The notes under the pieces are model-generated. The model was not told the DNA's origin. It was given only the letters and a program-made list of their open reading frames with translations, and did not search any database. Shown one piece after another: positions 1-12,040 of a stretch of 38,092 nucleotides of DNA. Source of the stretch: Candidatus Magasanikbacteria bacterium CG10_big_fil_rev_8_21_14_0_10_36_32. Lineage in GTDB: Bacteria; Patescibacteriota; Patescibacteriia; Magasanikbacterales; GWA2-37-8. The position numbers were made by a program, and so were the translations under genes. The stretch spans positions 1-38,092 of the forward strand of contig PFBV01000006.1 in NCBI GenBank assembly GCA_002778465.1, written 5' to 3'. Position 1 is the stretch's first letter. Every line of letters starts with the position of its first letter.

Positions 1-1431
1 GAACAAACTATCGGCCGTGGTTTGCGTTTGCCTTATGGCGTGCGGACCGGCGTTGAAAAGGTGGACAAGCTCACTATCATCGCTCACGATCGCTTCCAAT
101 CCATTATTGACGCCGCTAATGATCCAAACTCCATAATCCGGCAGGAAAATATTATTGAGATTGACCCAAGCGCTTTGCCTGAAGCACAGGAAGTTATTAC
201 TGCTTCCTCGGTAACGGACGAAGCCTTTGCTCTCAAGCGTCAGGAAGTAGCGACCATTACAAACGAAGTGGACCGACAAAAGGCCGGCTTAGTTTTAGAA
301 GCCGAACAACTAATCACGGAAGCCGTGAACGCTCTTGGTGCGAGCGTTAAAAATATCAATGACTTGAATAACGACGAGATTCGCAAACTGGCTTTTGAAA
401 AAATAGTCACAAGTATTGAAAGCAACCCGCAACAAAATTTGTTTAAGTCGGCCATTGTTGAAGCGGCTAAACAGGAATATGAGTCAGTCGTTTCCGAGTT
501 AATTGATAAGACAATCCCGATTCCACGCGTACTTATCCAACAAAAACACGATGTTAAGTCCGGCTTTAAAGATTTTGATCTTGATGTGGCTGGTCTTAAC
601 TATCAGCCAGTATCGGAGGAAATCATTCGTCGCACCCTTCGTACTAACGAAAGCGAAATCTTGCAAAGTGAAAGTTCCGGAGTAGAGCGTGATACCCCCG
701 AAAACATTTTAGTGAACGAATTGATTAACTACCCGGAGGTGGATTATGACCGTGAGTCCGAGTTGTTATATAAATTAGCTAAACAAGCTATCGCTAAACT
801 TGGTAACGCCCGAAGCGAAGAAGATTTGGAGAACATCGTGCTTTATCATAAACGAGAAATCGGCAAATATATTTATGCCCAATTGCAACAGCACTTTTAT
901 CTGGAAAGTTCCGGCTTTGAAGAACCACTTGTCTACCCGTTTGATCGGATAAAACCACATAACTTTTCCAAATACACCGCTGACAGCGTTCACCACTATA
1001 CTGAAACAATCACACCGACAAACACCATCCCCTCAAAAGTATTCAGTGGATTTAAAAAAGCTTGTCACAATCTGTACAAGTTTGATTCTAAATCCGAAAA
1101 GGATTTTTCCGCTATTTTGGAAAAAGATACAGATGTATTGAAGTGGCTTCGTCCAGCTGATTCGCAGTTTGAGCTTTATTGGAAATATAACTCAAAACGC
1201 TATCACCCAGACTTCGTGGTAGAAACTGCCGACACGATCTTTATGGTCGAGATTAAAGCCGAGAAAGACATTGACGATTCGGAAGTTCAGGAGAAAGCCG
1301 AAGCCGGCAAAAAGTATTGCGAATCCGCTACGGTATTTAATCTGGCTAACGGAGGCAAGAAGTGGACTTATGTTCTTATTCCGCATACAGCCGTCGCACC
1401 GAATATGAGTTTAAAGGGATTATGTAAATAA
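1..1431 (+). CDS. Type III restriction enzyme Res / DEAD-family helicase subunit, C-terminal part (5' truncated by window edge)
   Basis: Frame 1 is open from base 1: EQTIGRGLRLP resembles SF2 helicase motif VI; C-terminal DFVVETADTIFMVEIKAEKD fits a PD-(D/E)XK nuclease core. Confidence 0.85.
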   Translation, partial: EQTIGRGLRLPYGVRTGVEKVDKLTIIAHDRFQSIIDAANDPNSIIRQENIIEIDPSALPEAQEVITASSVTDEAFALKRQEVATITNEVDRQKAGLVLEAEQLITEAVNALGASVKNINDLNNDEIRKLAFEKIVTSIESNPQQNLFKSAIVEAAKQEYESVVSELIDKTIPIPRVLIQQKHDVKSGFKDFDLDVAGLNYQPVSEEIIRRTLRTNESEILQSESSGVERDTPENILVNELINYPEVDYDRESELLYKLAKQAIAKLGNARSEEDLENIVLYHKREIGKYIYAQLQQHFYLESSGFEEPLVYPFDRIKPHNFSKYTADSVHHYTETITPTNTIPSKVFSGFKKACHNLYKFDSKSEKDFSAILEKDTDVLKWLRPADSQFELYWKYNSKRYHPDFVVETADTIFMVEIKAEKDIDDSEVQEKAEAGKKYCESATVFNLANGGKKWTYVLIPHTAVAPNMSLKGLCK

Positions 1432-1432
1432 T

Positions 1433-2932
1433 ATGATAAAAAATGTACTGAGTTTAAATTCTATATACGCTAGAAAATTCTTCCTAAGCCAGGAGGCATA
1501 TTCAAATATGGAATTACCTCCGTACTTTGTGTTTAATAAGGTGCTCTCGGATATTGAAAAATCTTTTTCCGGTGAACTTGTCCCAAAAGATTTAAATGAG
1601 GCGAAGAAAAATGAGACAGTTAACCATATTCTTTATGGAAATAAAGACGGTAAGTATGCGTGGAGAAAATATGAGCTGATTAATCCATTGCTGTACATAT
1701 CATTGGTGAACATCATTACAGAAAAAAGCAATTGGAAAGTCTTGCAGGATCGTTTTAAGGAATTCAAAAAAGACAAAAATATTGAATGCGAGAGTATCCC
1801 AGTATTGCCCACAAGCAGGTCTAAACAAAAAGCTATTCAGATTTCACAATGGGTAAATAATATTGAGAAAAAGTCCATAGCTCTTTCACTGGAATATAAT
1901 TTTTTATACCAGACAGATATTACTGATTGTTACGGGTCGGTTTATACGCACTCTTTGTCGTGGGCAATCCATACTAAAGCAGTATCAAAAAATAAAAGAA
2001 ACTATGGTGATCTTTTTGGGAATAAAATCGATCACCATATTCAAGCCATGTCCTTTGGGCAAACAAATGGAATCCCTCAGGGTAGTATATTAATGGATTT
2101 TATAGCAGAGATTGTTCTTGGCTATGCAGACCATGAATTATCCAAAAAACTTGATTTAACTTTGAAAGGTAGAAAATTTCATATTTTAAGGTATCGGGAT
2201 GACTATAGAATTTTTGTAAATGATGTAAGTGACGGTGACACAATCTTGAAATGCCTAGGAGAGGTTTTATTAAATTTAGGGTTTCGATTAAATACCAACA
2301 AGACCTATTTTGACGAGGATGTCGTTTCCGGTTCAATTAAAAAAGATAAGATCGAAGCCTTGAAGTTTGAGTATGTCCCTAAAAAATTATCAAGAAAGGA
2401 ATTGCTGAGGCAGTTACTTATAGTCCAGCAAATTGGCAAACAATTTCCAAATTCCGGAACGCTTAAAAACCGGCTTTCAAAGATACTGGATGTAGTTAAA
2501 CCAAAAGATTTTTATGCTCAGGAAAGAATCATTTCTAGTCTGCTTACAGATATTGCACACAATAATCCCAACTCTTTTCCGGTTATCGCCGGTTTAATTT
2601 CAAACTGCATCGCTAAATTGCCAAATAAAAGACAAAAAGAGATGGTGTCACTGATCCAGTCAAAAATATGCACGCTAGCCAATATCGGCCTTTTAGAAAT
2701 ATGGACGCAAAGAATGTCTTTAGGCTTAAAATTTAAACTTAATTTGAATGAGAAATTGTGCAAGAGCGTTTACGGTGATACACAGCAGATATTTGAAACA
2801 GGTTGGATTAAAGATACGAAGATTAAAACTATCATTGATAGTAATGTTTGTATTGATAAGAAAATAATTGCTAAAACCAAAGCTAAAATTGAAAACAAAG
2901 AAGTGCAGATATTTAGTCCTTATAATTATTAA
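1433..2932 (+). CDS. RNA-directed DNA polymerase, UG/Abi-like (candidate defence-associated reverse transcriptase)
   Basis: RT motif A YQTDITDCYGSVY, motif B GQTNGIPQGS, catalytic RYRDD; helical C-terminal extension; no evident maturase or HNH domain. Confidence 0.85.
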   Translation: MIKNVLSLNSIYARKFFLSQEAYSNMELPPYFVFNKVLSDIEKSFSGELVPKDLNEAKKNETVNHILYGNKDGKYAWRKYELINPLLYISLVNIITEKSNWKVLQDRFKEFKKDKNIECESIPVLPTSRSKQKAIQISQWVNNIEKKSIALSLEYNFLYQTDITDCYGSVYTHSLSWAIHTKAVSKNKRNYGDLFGNKIDHHIQAMSFGQTNGIPQGSILMDFIAEIVLGYADHELSKKLDLTLKGRKFHILRYRDDYRIFVNDVSDGDTILKCLGEVLLNLGFRLNTNKTYFDEDVVSGSIKKDKIEALKFEYVPKKLSRKELLRQLLIVQQIGKQFPNSGTLKNRLSKILDVVKPKDFYAQERIISSLLTDIAHNNPNSFPVIAGLISNCIAKLPNKRQKEMVSLIQSKICTLANIGLLEIWTQRMSLGLKFKLNLNEKLCKSVYGDTQQIFETGWIKDTKIKTIIDSNVCIDKKIIAKTKAKIENKEVQIFSPYNY

Positions 2933-2937
2933 AAAAT

Positions 2938-3687
2938 ATGTCTGAATATTACAATCCACAACGAACGAGAAGTCTATACGATCCGGCATCGGCCGAGCCT
3001 TTTAAATTATCACGATCAAAGATCGATCTATTCTTGAATTGCCCAAGATGTTTTTATTATGACCGCAAACTTGGTGTCGGTCGTCCGCCCGGCTTTCCAT
3101 TTGCTTTAAACTCGGCCGTCGATCATCTTTTAAAACTCGAGTTTGATATTCATCGTGTCGCCGGTACAAAGCATCCCCTAATTGAAAAATACGGCGTTGA
3201 CGCTCGTCCGGTTGCTCACGAAGACTTGGATAAATGGCGACATAACTTTACTGGCATTCAGTATTTGCACCAGCCGACCAATTTTCTTGTATTCGGTGCT
3301 ATTGACGATCTCTGGCAAAACTCCCAAGGCGAATATATTGTCGTGGATTATAAATCCACTTCAAAAGATGAAGATATTACTGAACTTAATAAAGATTGGC
3401 AGATTGGATATAAGCGACAGATGGAAATCTATCAGTGGCTACTTCGCCAAAACGGTTACAATGTTTCAAACACTGGATATTTTGTTTATTGCAACGGCCA
3501 GACGGACCGAAAAGCTTTTGACGCCAAGCTCGAATTTGATATCACCTTAATCGCTTATAAAGGCGATGATTCTTGGGTTGAAAAAACTATCACGGAAGCC
3601 CACAAGTGTTTGAATGGCAATAAAATTCCCAACGCTGACCCTAATTGCGATTACTGCAATTATGTTCAGGCAATAAATAGCAAATAA
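2938..3687 (+). CDS. PD-(D/E)XK nuclease superfamily protein, Cas4/RecB-like
   Basis: LSRSKIDLFLNCPRCFYYDRKLG N-terminus, IVVDYKS core, QMEIYQWLL (QxxxY-like), C-terminal NCDYCNY cysteines. Confidence 0.8.
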   Translation: MSEYYNPQRTRSLYDPASAEPFKLSRSKIDLFLNCPRCFYYDRKLGVGRPPGFPFALNSAVDHLLKLEFDIHRVAGTKHPLIEKYGVDARPVAHEDLDKWRHNFTGIQYLHQPTNFLVFGAIDDLWQNSQGEYIVVDYKSTSKDEDITELNKDWQIGYKRQMEIYQWLLRQNGYNVSNTGYFVYCNGQTDRKAFDAKLEFDITLIAYKGDDSWVEKTITEAHKCLNGNKIPNADPNCDYCNYVQAINSK

Positions 3688-3692
3688 TTATT

Positions 3693-4991
3693 ATGTACAA
3701 CAGAGATCCGCATCAAGCATTAAAAAGTGAAGTTATAGGAAAAGTCCGGTCAGGGACAACTGATTTGGTCTTGGCAAAATTACAATGGAGTAAAGACGAT
3801 ATTGGTTATAGCTTACATGTGTCCCCAAACACATTCAGTATCTCGGGCGGTTATCAGATAACAGATTTTTTAAGCCATTTGGGGTTCCAACGAAGTGGAT
3901 GCTCGTTTATTGATAGTCGGCAGTGTTATGTCCGATGGGTAGATGCTAATTTTGACGTGAATGCTTTTGCTGGTTTTTTTGATAAGGCTTACCAAAACCT
4001 AACTGACGCACAAAAGGATTTAGAAAAATGCGGCTTCTTTTTTGATAAACCGGAGGGTTTGGGATATTTTCTTGGTGGCCAATCCCGTAGTAGACGGCAT
4101 GATTTTCAAATGTCTGGAGATGGGCATACCGCCATGTCAGTAAAGGCAATGAAGCAAAGCGAAGACGATGCCTTTCAGTACAAATTTACTTGGCTTGAAT
4201 CTAGCCAAGATAAAGGATGGGTAATACATTATCGCCCAAAGCATCTGCCATTATCATCTGAGCTTCGAAGCGTTTTTCAATTTTTAGGAATACACAATTT
4301 TGAACAATGTCCGGAATACGAATTTGAACCATGCTATTGGTATTCAATCGCTTTCGAAGAAAGAGGAGATAGAATGTTTGATAGTAATGCGAATACTGCA
4401 CACAGCTGGTTTGACTCTCACGCACAACATTTTTCCGCCGGTATTCAAAAGCTATTATCTGCCAACGCAGAGATAGAAAAATCAGGTCTTACTTTTTTGC
4501 CGTTTCAAAAACCATCAGAACGCTTAAATATCGATATTGAGAAAAGGGTTACTAGACCAAAGTCCTCTACCAAGCCAGAGGATACTACTAAATTCGATGT
4601 AGCAATTTCATTTGCCGGAACTGAACGAGAGCACGCAGAAAAATTAGCCACAACAATAAAGGATGCCGGCTTTTCTGTATTTTATGATGAATTTTATCCG
4701 GAGTATCTTTGGGGTAAAAATTTGGTGGATACATTTGATGAGATTTTTAGAAAACGTTCTCGCTATTGCGTAATCTTTATTTCAAAGGACTATAAGGAGA
4801 GGGTTTGGACTAATCACGAAAGACAAAGTGCCCAGGCACGTGCCTTAAATGAAAAAGGTAACGAATATATTTTGCCGATTAAAGTTGATGAGACAGAGCT
4901 TGACGGTATGCCACCTACGGTTGGTTATGTGCCTCTCAAAAAAGGAATTGAAAAAATCGGAGAGCTTCTGATTAAGAAATTAAAGACATAA
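3693..4991 (+). CDS. TIR domain-containing protein with uncharacterised N-terminal domain
   Basis: C-terminal FDVAISFAGTEREHAEKLATTIKDAGFSVFYDEF...CVIFISKDYKERVWTNHERQSA matches the TIR fold pattern. Confidence 0.85.
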   Translation: MYNRDPHQALKSEVIGKVRSGTTDLVLAKLQWSKDDIGYSLHVSPNTFSISGGYQITDFLSHLGFQRSGCSFIDSRQCYVRWVDANFDVNAFAGFFDKAYQNLTDAQKDLEKCGFFFDKPEGLGYFLGGQSRSRRHDFQMSGDGHTAMSVKAMKQSEDDAFQYKFTWLESSQDKGWVIHYRPKHLPLSSELRSVFQFLGIHNFEQCPEYEFEPCYWYSIAFEERGDRMFDSNANTAHSWFDSHAQHFSAGIQKLLSANAEIEKSGLTFLPFQKPSERLNIDIEKRVTRPKSSTKPEDTTKFDVAISFAGTEREHAEKLATTIKDAGFSVFYDEFYPEYLWGKNLVDTFDEIFRKRSRYCVIFISKDYKERVWTNHERQSAQARALNEKGNEYILPIKVDETELDGMPPTVGYVPLKKGIEKIGELLIKKLKT

Positions 4992-5001
4992 TTCGAATAC
5001 A

Positions 5002-5310
5002 ATGGAAATAGAATCAAAACAACAAATTTTAGAACGCCGGAAAGAGATTGAACAGGAGCTCGTGGAAATGCTCAAAGAAACTGAGAGCGATTTTACCTTG
5101 GATCATGTCCGAGACACTATTTATAACGAGGAAGATAGCGACGACATGATGAAAGTCGTGGCTATGTTTGATCGGGGCGGAGACGCTTCGGAATTAAGTA
5201 ATATTCTTGAAATAACAAATGACGCCTGGAATTATTTTCCGCACAAGGTGCTCGGTGGCATCTCGCCAGCTGAAAAGTTGTTTGAGTACAATCAAAATAA
5301 AAAGCAATAA
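5002..5310 (+). CDS. Small hypothetical acidic protein at the end of the defence operon
   Basis: 102-aa ORF starting 10 nt after the TIR gene; same strand. Confidence 0.7.
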   Translation: MEIESKQQILERRKEIEQELVEMLKETESDFTLDHVRDTIYNEEDSDDMMKVVAMFDRGGDASELSNILEITNDAWNYFPHKVLGGISPAEKLFEYNQNKKQ

Positions 5311-5313
5311 TTT

Positions 5314-5493
5314 ATGTCAGACGACAATGAGCCAATTAAAGACGAACCAGCCGAAGAAGCTCCGGACGAGGAAGTCGCCGAGCTTATGGAAAGTCACGAT
5401 CTTGATAAAGACACGGCTGAGCGTGTTCAAGAGATTATGGAAGATTTGGGTGTGGACGAGGATGATGCTGTAGAACTCGAGGAACTTTTGTAA
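5314..5493 (+). CDS. Very acidic 59-aa hypothetical protein (not in ORF track)
   Basis: ATG 5314 to TAA 5491-5493: MSDDNEPIKDEPAEEAPDEEVAELMESHDLDKDTAERVQEIMEDLGVDEDDAVELEELL; 3 nt after the upstream stop. Confidence 0.65.
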   Translation: MSDDNEPIKDEPAEEAPDEEVAELMESHDLDKDTAERVQEIMEDLGVDEDDAVELEELL

Positions 5494-5643
5494 GAGTCAT
5501 ATTTGCTTAACATTGCTTAAGTTAAGTAAATCGTTTTAAAGTCTCAAAACTCGTTCACAATCGTTTCCGGTTTCCAGATTGGTGCAAATCTCTTACTTCG
5601 GTCGAACCGCTCGCCACACGGGCAAACACGGGGTAAGAACGGG

Positions 5644-5757
5644 TTATACATTCTCGTACTTGGCCAGAATTTCTTTCATTTGGTCTAAAACTACCGTCGG
5701 ATATTTGTATTCACTTGCCCAGTCAAAAGTTCGGAAATCGTTGAGCAGGGCGAGCAA
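5644..5757 (-). pseudogene. Truncated C-terminal remnant of an unidentified gene
   Basis: Minus-strand reading LLALLNDFRTFDWASEYKYPTVVLDQMKEILAKYENV* is protein-like but has no plausible ATG start; it runs upstream into a terminator-like hairpin. Confidence 0.4.
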
Positions 5758-5761
5758 AAAT

Positions 5762-5797
5762 AAAACACCCTCTAATAAGGGCGTTTTATTTTATCTC
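5762..5797 (+). terminator. Rho-independent terminator-like hairpin
   Basis: AAAACACCCT/AGGGCGTTTT stem with one mismatch, followed by a T-rich tract. Confidence 0.5.
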
Positions 5798-5885
5798 TAT
5801 AGAATGATTGGAGCAAATCTTGACAATAACATAGTAATATACTATTTTATGTGTGGTCTTGAAAACTGGCAAAAGGAGAAAAACA

Positions 5886-6242
5886 ATGGCAACAGATGGA
5901 CCCACCCCGCCTCCCTGTGACCCTGAAATCTTCAAGAATGGCACGGGCCTGTGTGTCGTCGATGGCAGTTCCAACGCTGTAGAGTGTTGGGTACAATCGG
6001 TGGCAAAGAAGGCAAACACGAAGGTCGACTGGCATTATAGCGGTGGACGCGCGAATGTCCTACACCTAGGCGACGCCGACAGCTACCAGCGAGCGCTCAA
6101 CGCGGTCCATGAACTCACAGGCGAGCTCAAGGGACACATCCTCAGCGTCGGTGGCCCCGCTATCTATCGGGCTGGTGATACATTGCCCGAAGGGACAATC
6201 GCGATTGACCCAGACTTTGGTCCAATCGTTATGCGCCAATAA
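5886..6242 (+). CDS. Hypothetical protein, GC-rich orphan gene
   Basis: AGGAG Shine-Dalgarno upstream of ATG 5886 (preferred over the 5853 start); MATDGPTPPPCDPEIF...VDWHYSGGRANVLHLGDADSYQRALNAVHELTGELKGHIL; terminator follows. Confidence 0.75.
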   Translation: MATDGPTPPPCDPEIFKNGTGLCVVDGSSNAVECWVQSVAKKANTKVDWHYSGGRANVLHLGDADSYQRALNAVHELTGELKGHILSVGGPAIYRAGDTLPEGTIAIDPDFGPIVMRQ

Positions 6243-6261
6243 TATATTAGAACTCGCAACA

Positions 6262-6298
6262 AACCCCCAACGAGAATAAATAAGGGGGTTCTTTTTTT
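6262..6298 (+). terminator. Rho-independent terminator
   Basis: AACCCCC...GGGGGTTCTTTTTTT. Confidence 0.75.
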
Positions 6299-6542
6299 AT
6301 GTAAAATTTGGAATGTAAACTTTCTTGACGAAACACAACAAAAAAACATAATTGCTCAACCATATTTTAACTTGTTGATAAAACCATACAATGATAAAAT
6401 AAAGATACTTTTTCCATTTTGATTTCTTATTTAACCAAATGATTTTCCGTACCAAGCCTTTTAATCTATTTTGGATTTTTTTTAATACCAATTAGTTTCT
6501 ACTTAATTTTCATTGTGCCAAAAAATTAAAATAATAAATGAC

Positions 6543-7514
6543 ATGAATAATCTTTTTTATCCGATTAATTTGTTTTCCGATTGGTTTGTGTATAATTTGT
6601 TAAAAATAAATCCGAGTAACACTTTTTCCGGAGTGTTGCGTTTTTTTGTCTACGATTATCTTAAAATTATAATATTGCTAATTATAATTACACACCTAAT
6701 GAGTTTGATCCGTCATTATTTGCCAATTAAAAAATTTAGAAATTTTTTACTTAATCATAAACTGTATGGAATGGATTATTTTCTAGCTTCAGGATTTGGC
6801 GCCATAACACCATTTTGTTCCTGTTCATCTATACCATTGTTTATAGGATTAATACAGGCAAAAATTCCAATAGGCGTAACTTTTTCTTTTTTGATTACAT
6901 CTCCGTTAATTAACGAGGTAGCTATTGCTTTATTCATCGGCCTGTTCGGTTGGAAAATAACAATATTATATATTGCGGCTGGAATTTTAATCGGGGTTAT
7001 TGGCGGAATTATTTTGCAAAAATTAAAAATGGAAAAATATATTATTAACTTGGAAGAAACAAATCAATGCTCATGTTGTAATAAAAAAATTATTTTAACA
7101 CCTCAACAAGTAATAACAAAAATAGTAGCGGAAGCTTTCAATATTGTTAAAAAGGTTTTACCTTACATCACATTGGGTGTGGGCTTGGGAGCATTTATTC
7201 ACGGTTATGTGCCTCAAGGTTTTTTTGAACAATATTTGCAGCAGTGGGGTATTTGGGGTGTTCCCATCGCTGTAATTGTGGCTGTACCACTCTACTCAAA
7301 CGCCAGTGGAATTATTCCAATTATTCAATCTCTCATCACCAAGGGCGTGCCTATCGGCACAGGCTTAGCTTTTATGATGTCTACTGTCGGATTATCCCTA
7401 CCCGAAGCAATGATTCTTAAAAAAATATTAAAATGGCCGCTTTTGGCAACTTTCTTCGGAATAGTTACTGCTGGCATAATACTCATTGGGTATTTATTTA
7501 ATTGGATAATATAA
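6543..7514 (+). CDS. Permease, ArsP_1/UPF0718 (YraQ) type
   Basis: Multi-TM protein with GFGAITPFCSCSSIPLFIGLIQAKIPIGVTFSFLITSPLINE; ORF is open from 6513 but ATG 6543 is the likelier start. Confidence 0.85.
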   Translation: MNNLFYPINLFSDWFVYNLLKINPSNTFSGVLRFFVYDYLKIIILLIIITHLMSLIRHYLPIKKFRNFLLNHKLYGMDYFLASGFGAITPFCSCSSIPLFIGLIQAKIPIGVTFSFLITSPLINEVAIALFIGLFGWKITILYIAAGILIGVIGGIILQKLKMEKYIINLEETNQCSCCNKKIILTPQQVITKIVAEAFNIVKKVLPYITLGVGLGAFIHGYVPQGFFEQYLQQWGIWGVPIAVIVAVPLYSNASGIIPIIQSLITKGVPIGTGLAFMMSTVGLSLPEAMILKKILKWPLLATFFGIVTAGIILIGYLFNWII

Positions 7515-7540
7515 TCTGTTTTAGATATTTTATAAAACAA

Positions 7541-7566
7541 AAACCCGGAGAAAAATCTCCGGGTTT
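7541..7566. terminator. Bidirectional terminator-like hairpin
   Basis: AAACCCGGAGA AAAA TCTCCGGGTTT between convergent genes. Confidence 0.8.
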
Positions 7567-7583
7567 AAATTTTAATGTATCAT

Positions 7584-7841
7584 TTATTTTGAACTATCTT
7601 TTACTATATAAACAGACACTACAACCACCACAGTAGTTATAATTAAAGCATAAAATATTTTTGCCACCAAACCATCACTGACTACCGGAAAAAAATGGTC
7701 TATAGAAGCTTTAATCGCGTCATTCCAAGCCAAACTGGCAACTAATCCAAAACCTGCCAAAATATATCCGGCCACTTTTGATTTGATAGCTGTTTTAATT
7801 TTTACCGTCTCTCCTTTTATTTTTTCATTATAATTTTCCAT
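7584..7841 (-). CDS. DUF5654-like small membrane protein
   Basis: Two predicted TM segments; GLVASLAWNDAIKASIDHFFP resembles DUF5654 proteins. Confidence 0.7.
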   Translation of the reverse strand: MENYNEKIKGETVKIKTAIKSKVAGYILAGFGLVASLAWNDAIKASIDHFFPVVSDGLVAKIFYALIITTVVVVVSVYIVKDSSK

Positions 7842-7923
7842 ATTTAAAAATAATTTATTAACTTAACTATACTATCACTAAAAATTCACACGAGCAAGAT
7901 AATGTCTTGAGATCTTAAAACAA

Positions 7924-7949
7924 AAACCCGGAAAAAATTCTCCGGGTTT
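7924..7949 (-). terminator. Terminator hairpin downstream of L,D-transpeptidase gene
   Basis: AAACCCGGA...TCCGGGTTT; near copy of the 7541 hairpin. Confidence 0.7.
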
Positions 7950-7966
7950 AAAAAACTCACACAATT

Positions 7967-8791
7967 TTATTCAAAATCGCCGATAATTAAATACCTTCCG
8001 GAAAAAGAAACTATCTTCCTGTCTTTTCTGAAAATTCTTTTCCCCTGCTTCGGATGATCTTCGTAATCACTATCTATAATTCCATACAAATCCAAAAAAT
8101 TATTCATCTTAGCTGAAACGCGGATGCATCCTTTTGAATCTCTTTTGCCCAACCGCGGCTCACCGAAATTCGGATCAGTCGCGTGCATCATCATTCTTAT
8201 GTCAAAAGGAAAACCCTTTTTAATCGACTTTTGCCAGCCAAAATCCCACACTCTTGAATTCTTCACACCAAGTCCCATCCAACCCTTACTGTTTCTCGTT
8301 CCTTGAGCGCGATAACTCATGTGTTTGACTGAATTTTCGAAAATACCAGTCGGCGTAATATAATGTTTTGCCCTCATCGGATTACCGGTGGAAACTTTAT
8401 CCCATCCAATTACCGAAATTGTACCATCGGTTTTAAAAAATCCAACCATTATATTCTGCCTATTTTCATTTCTGTCTACGAATACGAAATATTGAAGTTC
8501 TTGTGCGCGAGAAGTTTCATTCATTTTATCGTTGATAAAATGAAACACTGCGGACAAATAATCCGGTTCATCAATTTTCAAAGAAGAAACATTTTGATTA
8601 AACTCCGCTTGCAAAACTGTAATTTCATCAACGATATTTTCCATCTTGAGTGACATTCTCCCTGAATTGGCAATCGCTTGAAATTGTTTAGTCTTTTTAA
8701 CAGTACTTTCTTCATTGAATGAAACTAAACATTCGGAACACGATAAAACCGTCAAAAAAATAAGAAAATTCGTCACCTTTTTCATGCTCAC
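7967..8791 (-). CDS. L,D-transpeptidase (YkuD) family protein
   Basis: Hydrophobic N-terminus; MMMHATDP...RDSKGCIRVS fits the YkuD catalytic HxxD/SxGCxR pattern. Start is GTG 8791 or ATG 8785. Confidence 0.8.
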   Translation of the reverse strand: MSMKKVTNFLIFLTVLSCSECLVSFNEESTVKKTKQFQAIANSGRMSLKMENIVDEITVLQAEFNQNVSSLKIDEPDYLSAVFHFINDKMNETSRAQELQYFVFVDRNENRQNIMVGFFKTDGTISVIGWDKVSTGNPMRAKHYITPTGIFENSVKHMSYRAQGTRNSKGWMGLGVKNSRVWDFGWQKSIKKGFPFDIRMMMHATDPNFGEPRLGKRDSKGCIRVSAKMNNFLDLYGIIDSDYEDHPKQGKRIFRKDRKIVSFSGRYLIIGDFE

Positions 8792-8969
8792 TACCGCCTT
8801 TCACGGCCATACCGGCACGATTATGAATCAATGTTTTTATTGTTAAAGAACAAATTGTTACCCCAAAATATACCATAAATAAACGTTTTTGTCAATATAC
8901 TTATTCAACTTGCTACAAATTGTTTTTTATGTGATATAATAAATATGCATAAATAACCAACAGAACTCT

Positions 8970-9629
8970 ATGACATTTACAGACATAACACCTATTCCCG
9001 AAAAGCAATCATCTCTTTTACGTAAATGGCCACACAAAGAATTGGCTCTGTCTATAATTTCAGCAGTCTTATTATTTATTGTGAGTCTGGTGATAAATCA
9101 TTTTGCTGGAAGTTATGCTACCGCTCGAGCCGGAAATCACGTCCGCGATATTATATTAGACAATATCCCCACTATTAATGTCAGCGGGATTTTTATTTAC
9201 GGTTTTGCAATATTTTTTATATTTGTAGTGGTCTTAATGTTTTGGAAACCACGTTTAACACCATTCATTCTTAAAAGTCTAAGTCTATTCATTATTATCC
9301 GTTCATTTTTTATTTGTCTGACTCACATCGGACCTCAACCACAAATGACTTTTATTCCTTCCGGGAGCATCGCCAATCTTTTTACTTTCACTGGTGATTT
9401 ATTTTTCTCAGCGCACACAGGACTCCCATTCCTGATGGCGCTTATTTTTTTAAAAAATAAATATCTACGTTCTGTCTTTTTAATTTTTTCGTTATTATTT
9501 GGCACGGTCGTGCTTTTAGGACATTATCATTACTCAATTGACGTCTTCTCCGCATTTTTCATCACTTATGGCATATACCACATTGCCAAATGGTTGTTTA
9601 AAAAAGATTACAACTATACAAAAATTTAA
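8970..9629 (+). CDS. PAP2-like / sphingomyelin synthase-type membrane phosphatase
   Basis: Multi-TM; FTGDLFFSAHTGLPFLMAL and GHYHYSIDVFSAFFITY resemble the conserved SGH/HxxxD elements of PAP2_C. Confidence 0.75.
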   Translation: MTFTDITPIPEKQSSLLRKWPHKELALSIISAVLLFIVSLVINHFAGSYATARAGNHVRDIILDNIPTINVSGIFIYGFAIFFIFVVVLMFWKPRLTPFILKSLSLFIIIRSFFICLTHIGPQPQMTFIPSGSIANLFTFTGDLFFSAHTGLPFLMALIFLKNKYLRSVFLIFSLLFGTVVLLGHYHYSIDVFSAFFITYGIYHIAKWLFKKDYNYTKI

Positions 9630-9694
9630 CTGCTTTTTTTACGGACAATGTAAAATATGATATAATATAAAACATAATTTATTAATTATTAAAT

Positions 9695-10168
9695 ATGAAG
9701 AAAAAAATCATCGTAACCTTAATTTTATTGGTTGTGATCGTCGCCAGCGCGATAGCTTATCGTTTTTGGTCTACTTCACAGGAAGAAAACTCCATAATAA
9801 TCGGGGGCGACAAAGATGAAGGAGGATGTTTGATTGCCGCCGGATATTCATGGTGCGAAGCCAAACAAAAATGTCTGCGTATTTTTGAAGAAGATTGTCT
9901 GTCTATAGAAGGAATTACTTCTGTTTTGGCAACGAAACACCGCAAATTAACTTCTGAAGTATTTATTGAAATCATCAAAGAAAATACGGAGTATGCCGCC
10001 GGACAGGTTTGGTACGATCAAAGAGGTGGCGAAGGCGGAGTTTTCTTGGCTACAAAAACAGAAGCCGGATGGGAAATTGTTTTTGATGGAAATGGCAGTA
10101 TTGATTGTGAAAGAATTAAACAGGAGTATACTTTTCCAGAAGATATGTTAATCGGCTTTTGTGACTAA
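9695..10168 (+). CDS. Membrane-anchored hypothetical protein with cysteine motif
   Basis: N-terminal TM helix; GGCLIAAGYSWCEAKQKCLRIFEEDC. Confidence 0.65.
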   Translation: MKKKIIVTLILLVVIVASAIAYRFWSTSQEENSIIIGGDKDEGGCLIAAGYSWCEAKQKCLRIFEEDCLSIEGITSVLATKHRKLTSEVFIEIIKENTEYAAGQVWYDQRGGEGGVFLATKTEAGWEIVFDGNGSIDCERIKQEYTFPEDMLIGFCD

Positions 10169-10199
10169 ACATATAGTAAATATTTAAATAAAAAAATAT

Positions 10200-11255
10200 A
10201 TGCAATTTTTAAATAACTTAAATTTAAAACCGACAAATATTTTAAAAATTGCTGGTTTGGTATTAGTGTCTGCTGTTGTAATTACTTTGGCTTTCCGATT
10301 AATCGGGTCTTCGCTTAAAACTCAAACTCAAAAAATTAGTATCGGCAACGCGATGTATCAAACTGCACCAAGTTATGATGCCGGCGGAATGGCATACGAA
10401 AAAAGCGCCAATATGACCTATGGACAAGATAGTATTACAATCGGCTTGTCTTCTCGCAATGCGGTTTCTGTTTCCACACCAATTACTCACTCTGAATCAA
10501 CAACCGGTGATAATGCCGAAGAATTTGAAGTAACCGAATACAACGCTAATATTGAAACTCGCCATTTACAAGACACCTGCGGACAAATTGCCTCTTTGAA
10601 ATCACGCGCTGATGTAATATTTGAAAATGCCAACGAATACGAACGAAGCTGTAATTATGGTTTTAAAGTTAAACGCGAAAATGTAGACGAAATACTGGCA
10701 ATTATTGAGGCGTTAAATCCGAAAGAATTAAATGAAAATACATATACCATTAAACGTCTGGTTGATGACTATACCAGTGAGGTGGACATTCTAAACAAAA
10801 AAATAAAATCCATTGAAGAAACATTAACTAGCGCGGTGAAGGCCCATGACAATGTTACCGCTTTGGCCGCCCAAACTCAAAATGTAGAAAGTTTAGCAAA
10901 AATTATTGACAGTAAAATCAATATTATTGAAAGATTAACTCAAGAGCGCATCAATATAAACGCTCAATTAGAGCGATTAGACCGCGCCAAAGCCGACCAA
11001 CTTGATAGATTAAATTATACGTATTTCAATGTTTATGCCGCAGAAGATAAGTTTGTTGATATACGAAACCTAAAAGATTCCTGGAAAGAAGCTATTAAAT
11101 CGTTTGTTCGCGACATTAATAAAGTTTTACAGGATATTACCATTAATCTGATTGCCTTAATGTTTATTGTTCTTCAATATATCATTTACTTCTTCATTGT
11201 TCTAATCGTAGTAAAATATGGTTGGAAATTAATCAGATACATCTGGAAAAAATAA
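10200..11255 (+). CDS. DUF4349-like membrane protein
   Basis: N-terminal TM, two-Cys extracellular region, long coiled-coil and C-terminal TM, in the layout of DUF4349 proteins. Confidence 0.7.
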   Translation: MQFLNNLNLKPTNILKIAGLVLVSAVVITLAFRLIGSSLKTQTQKISIGNAMYQTAPSYDAGGMAYEKSANMTYGQDSITIGLSSRNAVSVSTPITHSESTTGDNAEEFEVTEYNANIETRHLQDTCGQIASLKSRADVIFENANEYERSCNYGFKVKRENVDEILAIIEALNPKELNENTYTIKRLVDDYTSEVDILNKKIKSIEETLTSAVKAHDNVTALAAQTQNVESLAKIIDSKINIIERLTQERININAQLERLDRAKADQLDRLNYTYFNVYAAEDKFVDIRNLKDSWKEAIKSFVRDINKVLQDITINLIALMFIVLQYIIYFFIVLIVVKYGWKLIRYIWKK

Positions 11256-11269
11256 TATAATATTTTTCC

Positions 11270-12040
11270 ATGACTAAAAAACTGTTGATCGTAATTCCAA
11301 TTCTAACATTGACTATTTTGTTGTCAGCATCTTTAATTTTTTACGGACCGATTATTTTTCAGGAAGGCAATCCCCTTCCCCAACTAAACGGAATAATCCG
11401 GTTAAATTTTGGATCGGAAAAAATAATTAAGTTAGACACAAAGGAAAACAAATACATAACTAAAAACAAAACCGGACGCGATGAGATAATAAAATTAATG
11501 GAAAATAAAAATTATCAATTTGTTGAACAACTGGGTTCCGGATATTTATTTCAAACTCCAACTAATAAAAGTTTCGTTATCACCCGTCGTCAATATACGC
11601 AATACTACAGCATTTGGAAATTCCCAAGTACTGAATTAGAAACAAAAACAAACGATAATTTGGCTGAGCAACTTAAAGAATGTCTCCCAAAAAGCGACAT
11701 GGGCAGCTGGGAACAATGCAAACAACTGATGGATCAAATAAAAAATTTTGACGATTGTGTAAACGCCGGTTTTTCTATAATGAAATCAAATCCGCCTCAA
11801 TGTTTAACACCTGACGGAAAAAATTTCACCGACGAAACTAATAGTACTTGGGAAATGGCCATACAAGCCGTTACCAATTGTGAGGTAGAAAAAATTTTTC
11901 AATCACATAATCGGCTTGTAACTTTAAAATTAAGAAATGAAAACCAACTAACAGTCGTTGAACCAAAAATTGATGATATTATCACAATCGCAGAGATGTC
12001 GGAAGACAAATGCGGTCACATATTAATAGGAACCGAATAA
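11270..12040 (+). CDS. Membrane-anchored hypothetical protein with CxxAG...PPQCxTPDGxxF motif
   Basis: N-terminal TM; DDCVNAGFSIMKSNPPQCLTPDGKNFTDE. Confidence 0.65.
   Translation: MTKKLLIVIPILTLTILLSASLIFYGPIIFQEGNPLPQLNGIIRLNFGSEKIIKLDTKENKYITKNKTGRDEIIKLMENKNYQFVEQLGSGYLFQTPTNKSFVITRRQYTQYYSIWKFPSTELETKTNDNLAEQLKECLPKSDMGSWEQCKQLMDQIKNFDDCVNAGFSIMKSNPPQCLTPDGKNFTDETNSTWEMAIQAVTNCEVEKIFQSHNRLVTLKLRNENQLTVVEPKIDDIITIAEMSEDKCGHILIGTE

Follow-up and report, generated by a model that had tools for sequence, protein, structure and literature searches.

The first 5,493 nucleotides of contig PFBV01000006.1 from Candidatus Magasanikbacteria bacterium CG10_big_fil_rev_8_21_14_0_10_36_32 (GenBank assembly GCA_002778465.1) encode part of a type III restriction endonuclease (Res), a reverse transcriptase (RT)-like polymerase, a Cas4-like nuclease, a TIR-domain protein and two small acidic proteins, which raises the question whether these genes constitute one composite defence system or a restriction operon loaded with exchangeable cargo. 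The analysed stretch, referred to as the window, comprises positions 1 to 38,092 of this contig. Based on comparison with related loci, the gene set is explained, with moderate confidence, as a mobile type III restriction-modification (RM) operon of a bacterium of the Candidate Phyla Radiation (CPR) featuring a 3' slot that carries a swappable back-up (abortive) payload. As these relatives show, the operon tail represents swappable cargo and not one fixed machine.

Six open reading frames (ORFs), called mechanically, are located on the plus strand and span positions 1-5493 with intergenic gaps of 1, 5, 5, 10 and 3 nt, exactly as described in an earlier note on this DNA. Protein identities were checked by means of hidden Markov models (HMMs) deposited in PADLOC and Pfam. 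The assignments proposed in the earlier note, namely a defence operon encoding a type III Res, an RT of the UG/Abi class, a Cas4-like nuclease and a TIR protein, were confirmed by matches to REase_III (PADLOC, 257 bits), AbiP2 (PADLOC, 574 bits), PF12705 (PDDEXK_1, 58.7 bits at a cut-off of 22) and PF13676 (TIR_2, 56 bits), respectively, and the two small proteins are indeed acidic (isoelectric points (pI) of 4.46 and 4.05). Judged by its sequence features, the ORF series is not a chance arrangement, since homologues were found for five of the six genes, the PD...EIK, YRDD and DxK signatures of Res, RT and the Cas4-like nuclease are intact, and a conserved hairpin-containing tail follows at the 3' end. 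An Rfam scan of the window yielded tRNAs alone.

Since base 1 of the window is the first base of the contig (C5; 48,371 bp, within a genome of 880 kb and 97% completeness), the first ORF represents a res gene cut by the assembly, and the operon start and promoter side are out of view. The encoded fragment (1..1431, plus strand, 5' open) comprises the C-terminal 476 aa of Res including the PD-EXK nuclease, which is the sole portion present and retains the signature HPDF...EIK. Its best stretch on the REase_III profile covers positions 519-858 of 871, and PF08722 was matched with 30.7 bits. An intact homologue of 883 aa, 96% identical to the window Res and featuring REase_III (634 bits) and the ResIII helicase, is encoded at locus L117 directly after a type III methyltransferase (Mod) gene (MTase_III, 566 bits), and Mod is also encoded upstream of Res in L099 and L118. 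A mod gene is therefore very probably located upstream of the window res, as far as these relatives allow a prediction. The earlier note had proposed to inspect the sequence upstream of base 1 for a Mod gene; in the window genome base 1 coincides with the contig end, and Mod and Res of L117, used as queries, gave no match in the examined contig-end stretches. In L117, a RhuM-like gene (PADLOC PDC-S05, 398 bits; L117 1-756) is located directly 5' of mod, and in L118 two small additional ORFs lie between mod and res (2425-2981).

Evidence for exchange of the operon tail originates from L117, the closest relative (97% identity for RT in addition to the value given for Res), which consists of the RhuM-like gene, mod, res, an AbiP2-type RT gene, a cas4-like gene and a probable terminator. 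Here, mod, res and the RT gene are separated by gaps of 1-2 nt. Nucleotide identity between the window and L117 amounts to approximately 91% through res and the RT gene, drops to 54-70% past the RT stop codon across the cas4-like gene, and homology restarts at position 5495, just past the last stop codon in each locus, with 82% identity over 265 bp (L117 7216-7480). The drop at the RT stop and the recovery after the last stop codon indicate that positions 2933..5494 represent an exchanged cassette. According to this alignment, the four genes encoding the Cas4-like nuclease, TIR protein, sm1 and sm2 in the window and the lone cas4-like gene of L117 fill one slot between a common Mod-Res-AbiP2 block and a terminator-like tail. 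Cassette exchange agrees with the Cas4 tree, in which the window copy groups with those of L057 and L058 and the L117 copy with those of L099, L119 and L120 (Shimodaira-Hasegawa-like approximate likelihood ratio test (SH-aLRT) support of 99 each). The non-coding tail (5495..5758, plus strand) contains an 11-bp hairpin, which is present in both loci (z of -1.6 in the window and -3.3 in L117), and a 48-bp piece of it was also found in L099. It is a probable operon terminator that travels with the RM block. Its interpretation as a genomic repeat or attachment site was ruled out, as it occurs in a single copy in the genome.

Furthermore, the RT itself is replaceable. In L099, genes for Mod and Res (86% identity for Res) are followed by a helix-turn-helix (HTH) gene and a retron-type RT gene (RT_VI, 212 bits) at the position of AbiP2, and then by the cas4-like and sm1 genes; an Rfam search near this RT gave no match. 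In L091, an RT gene of the UG14 class abuts the cas4-like gene without a gap. Sub-blocks of the operon recur apart from each other, namely Mod-Res-AbiP2 (L117, L118), Mod-Res-retron RT-Cas4-sm1 (L099) and Cas4-sm1 (L058, L099), and AbiP2-Cas4 pairs are located beside type I RM genes (L119, L120) or EcoRI-like type II RM genes (L017). The CPR clade of AbiP2 comprises seven members (support 100), of which three are associated with type III, three with type I and one with EcoRI-like type II RM genes. Homologue and neighbourhood searches recovered the full six-gene set at no locus other than that of the window. As a side observation, the cas4-like gene following AbiP2 in L017 (2595-3240; identical to L121; genome G009) is frameshifted into two overlapping ORFs, reflecting decay or an assembly error, and the RT gene is intact.

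The structure and chemistry of Abi-P2 polymerases have been solved. The window RT (1433..2932, plus strand, 499 aa) clearly belongs to this named family by sequence: the match to the AbiP2 profile covers positions 4-485 of 489, the next UG/Abi group scores 183 bits in PADLOC, and the best PDB match is Abi-P2 polymerase 7r08 (E 3.8e-73). Residues Y31, D162, D256 and D257, representing the putative priming tyrosine and the catalytic aspartate triad, are invariant in 81/81 aligned AbiP2 sequences. Y31 and F17 of the window RT align with tyrosines at positions 61 and 46 of 7r08 (chain numbering). Abi-P2 was described to synthesize DNA in a template-independent manner, with one of its own tyrosines serving as primer; Tyr61 is the priming residue and Tyr46 the other residue tested, and the corresponding genes of P2 prophages are solitary (PMC9508834). 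At 1-2 nt, the gaps 5' of the RT gene in the window and L117 are too short to accommodate a neighbouring non-coding RNA (ncRNA); by this and by the wide AbiP2 score margin, a retron reading of the window RT was ruled out. The gene set, not recognised as a named system in the earlier note, matched no other locus found as a whole, but its RT is a member of a known family.

In order to place AbiP2 in its genomic context, neighbourhoods were counted in 82 loci drawn from the best 80 of 395 loci by similarity (GTDB genome scan), the window, genome G009 and a viral contig. Neighbour labels were deduced from clustering of called ORFs, by which divergent HsdS proteins are missed; short contigs hide neighbours, and the census covers AbiP2 alone among the RT classes. 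Type I RM genes were located near AbiP2 in 36 of the 82 loci and type III RM genes in four. Among same-strand upstream genes, 20/58 matched Methylase_S, and 10/48 downstream genes featured an HsdR domain. In 20 of the 74 loci numbered L122-L196, the RT gene and the gene upstream of it overlap by 1 or 4 nt, and in 15 of these the overlapped gene is hsdS; the order HsdS-RT-HsdR was found in 12 loci. AbiP2 is carried by members of at least a dozen phyla, and its association with RM genes is scattered over the tree. The AbiP2 literature found does not mention this link; coverage of UG/Abi surveys was incomplete, so that an earlier notice is possible. A second type III arrangement was observed in L022 (IMG/VR contig, 969-11479), where AbiP2 is located upstream of mod, between a pair consisting of an SNF2 helicase gene and a gene for a 262-aa protein and a Mod-RhuM-Res block.

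The first gene of the window cassette (2938..3687, plus strand) encodes a PD-(D/E)XK nuclease of 249 aa. The cut-offs of curated Cas4 models were missed (Cas_Cas4, 20.3 bits versus a cut-off of 22.7; TIGR00372, 38.4 versus 65), and for this reason the protein is named Cas4-like (PDDEXK_1) and not Cas4. RecB motifs and four Fe-S cysteines (C35, C38, C237, C240, D124, D137xK139 and Q161xxxY165) are invariant in 61/61 Cas4-like sequences. A structure model of modest confidence (predicted local distance difference test (pLDDT) of 67) resembles lambda exonuclease, Cas4 (4ic1), MGME1 and AdnAB. Homologues are present in 129/380 CPR genomes. No cas1 gene was detected in 58 carriers (G000 and 57 others), with 9/14 controls being positive; the enzyme is therefore considered a solo-Cas4-like protein, and a role as CRISPR-adaptation Cas4 was ruled out. 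Solo-Cas4 in CPR and its adjacency to RM genes in DPANN were reported previously (Hudaiberdiev 2017, PMC5704561). In a CPR genome, a Fic-like gene is located 2 nt upstream of a cas4-like gene (L066, 6345-7774).

The second gene of the cassette (3693..4991, plus strand) encodes the TIR protein, with the TIR domain at approximately residues 299-425 matching AbTIR-type structures (7uwg/8g83). E376 within WTNHE aligns with the catalytic glutamate of WTNYE in AbTIR. In 379 other CPR genomes, one weak relative comprising the TIR domain alone was found; full-length relatives were detected neither in these genomes nor in plasmids or viral contigs, and the N-terminal part of approximately 290 aa has no detectable relatives. 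AlphaFold prediction from the single sequence was uninformative (pLDDT 38.5). The TIR gene splits the Cas4-sm1 pair in the window alone, the two genes being directly adjacent in L058 and L099. The small protein sm1 (5002..5310, plus strand, 102 aa) features the C-terminal motif AWNYFPHK-L-G-SPAE and has homologues in 19/380 CPR genomes in various contexts; sm2 (5314..5493, plus strand, 59 aa) is described by its sequence and pI. Neither protein gave a convincing family match in Pfam or a further profile search. Sm1 behaves as a domain, occurring as a stand-alone protein in some CPR bacteria and N- or C-terminally in proteins of 240-546 aa elsewhere (L206, L207, L209, L210-L212), in which no informative Pfam domain was found except SEC-C in one. 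In L207 (1076-1529), an acidic 51-aa ORF of sm2-like appearance precedes the sm1 homologue.

Under the explanation of a type III RM operon with a swappable payload, restriction would represent the first line of defence, and the cargo, co-expressed with the RM genes, would serve as a back-up (abortive) line. In case restriction fails or is inhibited, AbiP2 would begin protein-primed, template-independent DNA synthesis from Tyr31, comparable to the release of PrrC. The latter is encoded within the type I RM operon EcoprrI, sequestered by the RM complex and freed on T4 infection (PMC3874165, PMC2610378). The Cas4-like enzyme may trim DNA ends originating from Res or the polymerase product, and the TIR protein, if activated, would deplete nicotinamide adenine dinucleotide (NAD). 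By analogy to PrrC, AbiP2 may guard the RM system. A more general version is conceivable and is put forward tentatively. In this version, AbiP2-type polymerases would be widespread RM-guarding effectors embedded in type I, II and III operons of at least a dozen phyla; silenced by the restriction complex, they would begin template-independent DNA synthesis once restriction is shut down by a phage. The restriction system would thereby become a two-stage defence whose second stage (an AbiP2, a UG14 RT or a retron) is replaceable.

Several points weigh against this explanation. At 42/82 AbiP2 loci, RM genes of type I or III are not visible, although many contigs are short. RM genes do not accompany Abi-P2 in P2 prophages, nor AbiP2 on several plasmids, which implies that they are not obligatory for these polymerases. 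Control of AbiP2 by the RM system is suggested by gene placement and the PrrC precedent, and the RM-linked placement could reflect clustering of defence genes alone. Finally, the activator of the TIR protein and the role of its N-terminal part lie outside the explanation.

Among the alternatives, passive cargo survives best and is regarded as rather unlikely: AbiP2, solo-Cas4 and TIR genes, each acting independently, would have gathered behind an RM operon and share its transcript without functional coupling. RM loci are general hotspots of defence genes, and the free swapping of payload genes described above would be expected for such cargo, as would the solitary occurrence of AbiP2 in P2 prophages (PMC9508834). 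However, passive gathering does not readily account for the 1- or 4-nt overlap of AbiP2 with the hsdS stop codon in 15 of the 74 loci and its position between hsdS and hsdR in 12, across many phyla.

Less probable still is a two-gene module in which a DNA-synthesizing RT and a Cas4-like nuclease cooperate and travel as a pair with RM operons. Such a module would fit the location of RT genes directly 5' of cas4-like genes, at gaps of 0-9 nt, in three RT classes, namely AbiP2 (window, L117, L119, L120, L017), UG14 (L091) and retron type VI-like (L099), as well as the fact that near-identical RTs precede two Cas4 lineages. Nevertheless, RT and cas4-like genes are neighbours in just 2 of approximately 60 loci recovered by the Cas4 search, the window aside, and two closely related AbiP2 loci, L118 and L122, have no cas4-like gene.

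An integrated composite system requiring Res, RT, Cas4-like nuclease, TIR and small proteins together, as put forward in the earlier note, is considered very unlikely. The genes do share one strand and tight gaps, and a defence operon with these parts was confirmed; what is not supported is the unity of the system, because sub-blocks recur separately and the cassette was exchanged. Co-occurrence of the genes in relatives, the lack of which the earlier note had named as refuting, was not found: none of the relatives recovered carries the whole set, by which the composite system was ruled out as leading interpretation, the TIR gene was found in the window alone, the cas4-like and sm1 genes adjoin each other without it in L058 and L099, and L117 manages with Mod-Res-RT-Cas4. 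That the cas4-like gene encodes a CPR housekeeping (repair) nuclease present by chance is extremely improbable, as the window copy, which has defence genes on either side, groups with the restriction-associated copies of L057 and L058 and the copies nearest to it are mostly located at the ends of restriction operons, be they of type I, II or III, even though many CPR copies reside among ordinary genes, e.g., beside truB.

Two further features of the genome were recorded. A 129-aa ORF (window 5853-6242), apparently higher in G+C content than its surroundings, is located between the operon tail and a permease gene. Moreover, the genome encodes a second RT of 380 aa beside a small Avd-like ORF (G000:C4:164573-168184; locus L001), resembling a diversity-generating retroelement, a type of element that is common in CPR bacteria.

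The repeated location of AbiP2 at the PrrC position in RM operons provides a concrete and cheap trigger hypothesis, namely failing or inhibited restriction. Furthermore, cassette exchange between near-identical operons and the retron at the AbiP2 site show RM operons to serve as platforms with an exchangeable second defence line. The link between solo-Cas4 and RM genes, noted earlier for DPANN, is extended to CPR.

With respect to known systems, the locus resembles EcoprrI/PrrC in that an effector gene resides inside an RM operon (RT gene 1 nt after res in the window; likewise in L117) and in that AbiP2 occupies the hsdS-X-hsdR position, i.e., that of prrC, in at least 12 relatives. In contrast to PrrC, the effector is a DNA polymerase and not a tRNase, the RM system here is of type III, and silencing by the RM complex is known from PrrC. 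The RT shares with Abi-P2 (7r08, PMC9508834) the full-length family match, the YRDD active site and a tyrosine at the priming position, whereas the published P2-prophage genes are solitary and those of the window and many relatives reside within RM operons. A type VI retron is represented at the equivalent slot of L099 by the HTH gene and the RT_VI-like RT; unlike it, the window carries AbiP2 without an HTH gene and without ncRNA space. As in type XII retrons (RT-TIR), RT and TIR are combined in one defence locus, and the window TIR scores 44 bits against the retron-TIR model. However, TIR and RT of the window are encoded by distinct genes and not fused, the TIR protein carries an N-terminal region of its own, and the RT is AbiP2, by which a type XII retron was ruled out. 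Finally, the Cas4-like protein agrees with solo-Cas4 of CPR and DPANN (PMC5704561) in its CPR distribution, the lack of cas1 (58 genomes) and the RM adjacency known from DPANN, and differs in that the CPR copies described here follow type I, type II and type III RM operons as well as three RT classes and show a 2+2 spacing of the cysteines.

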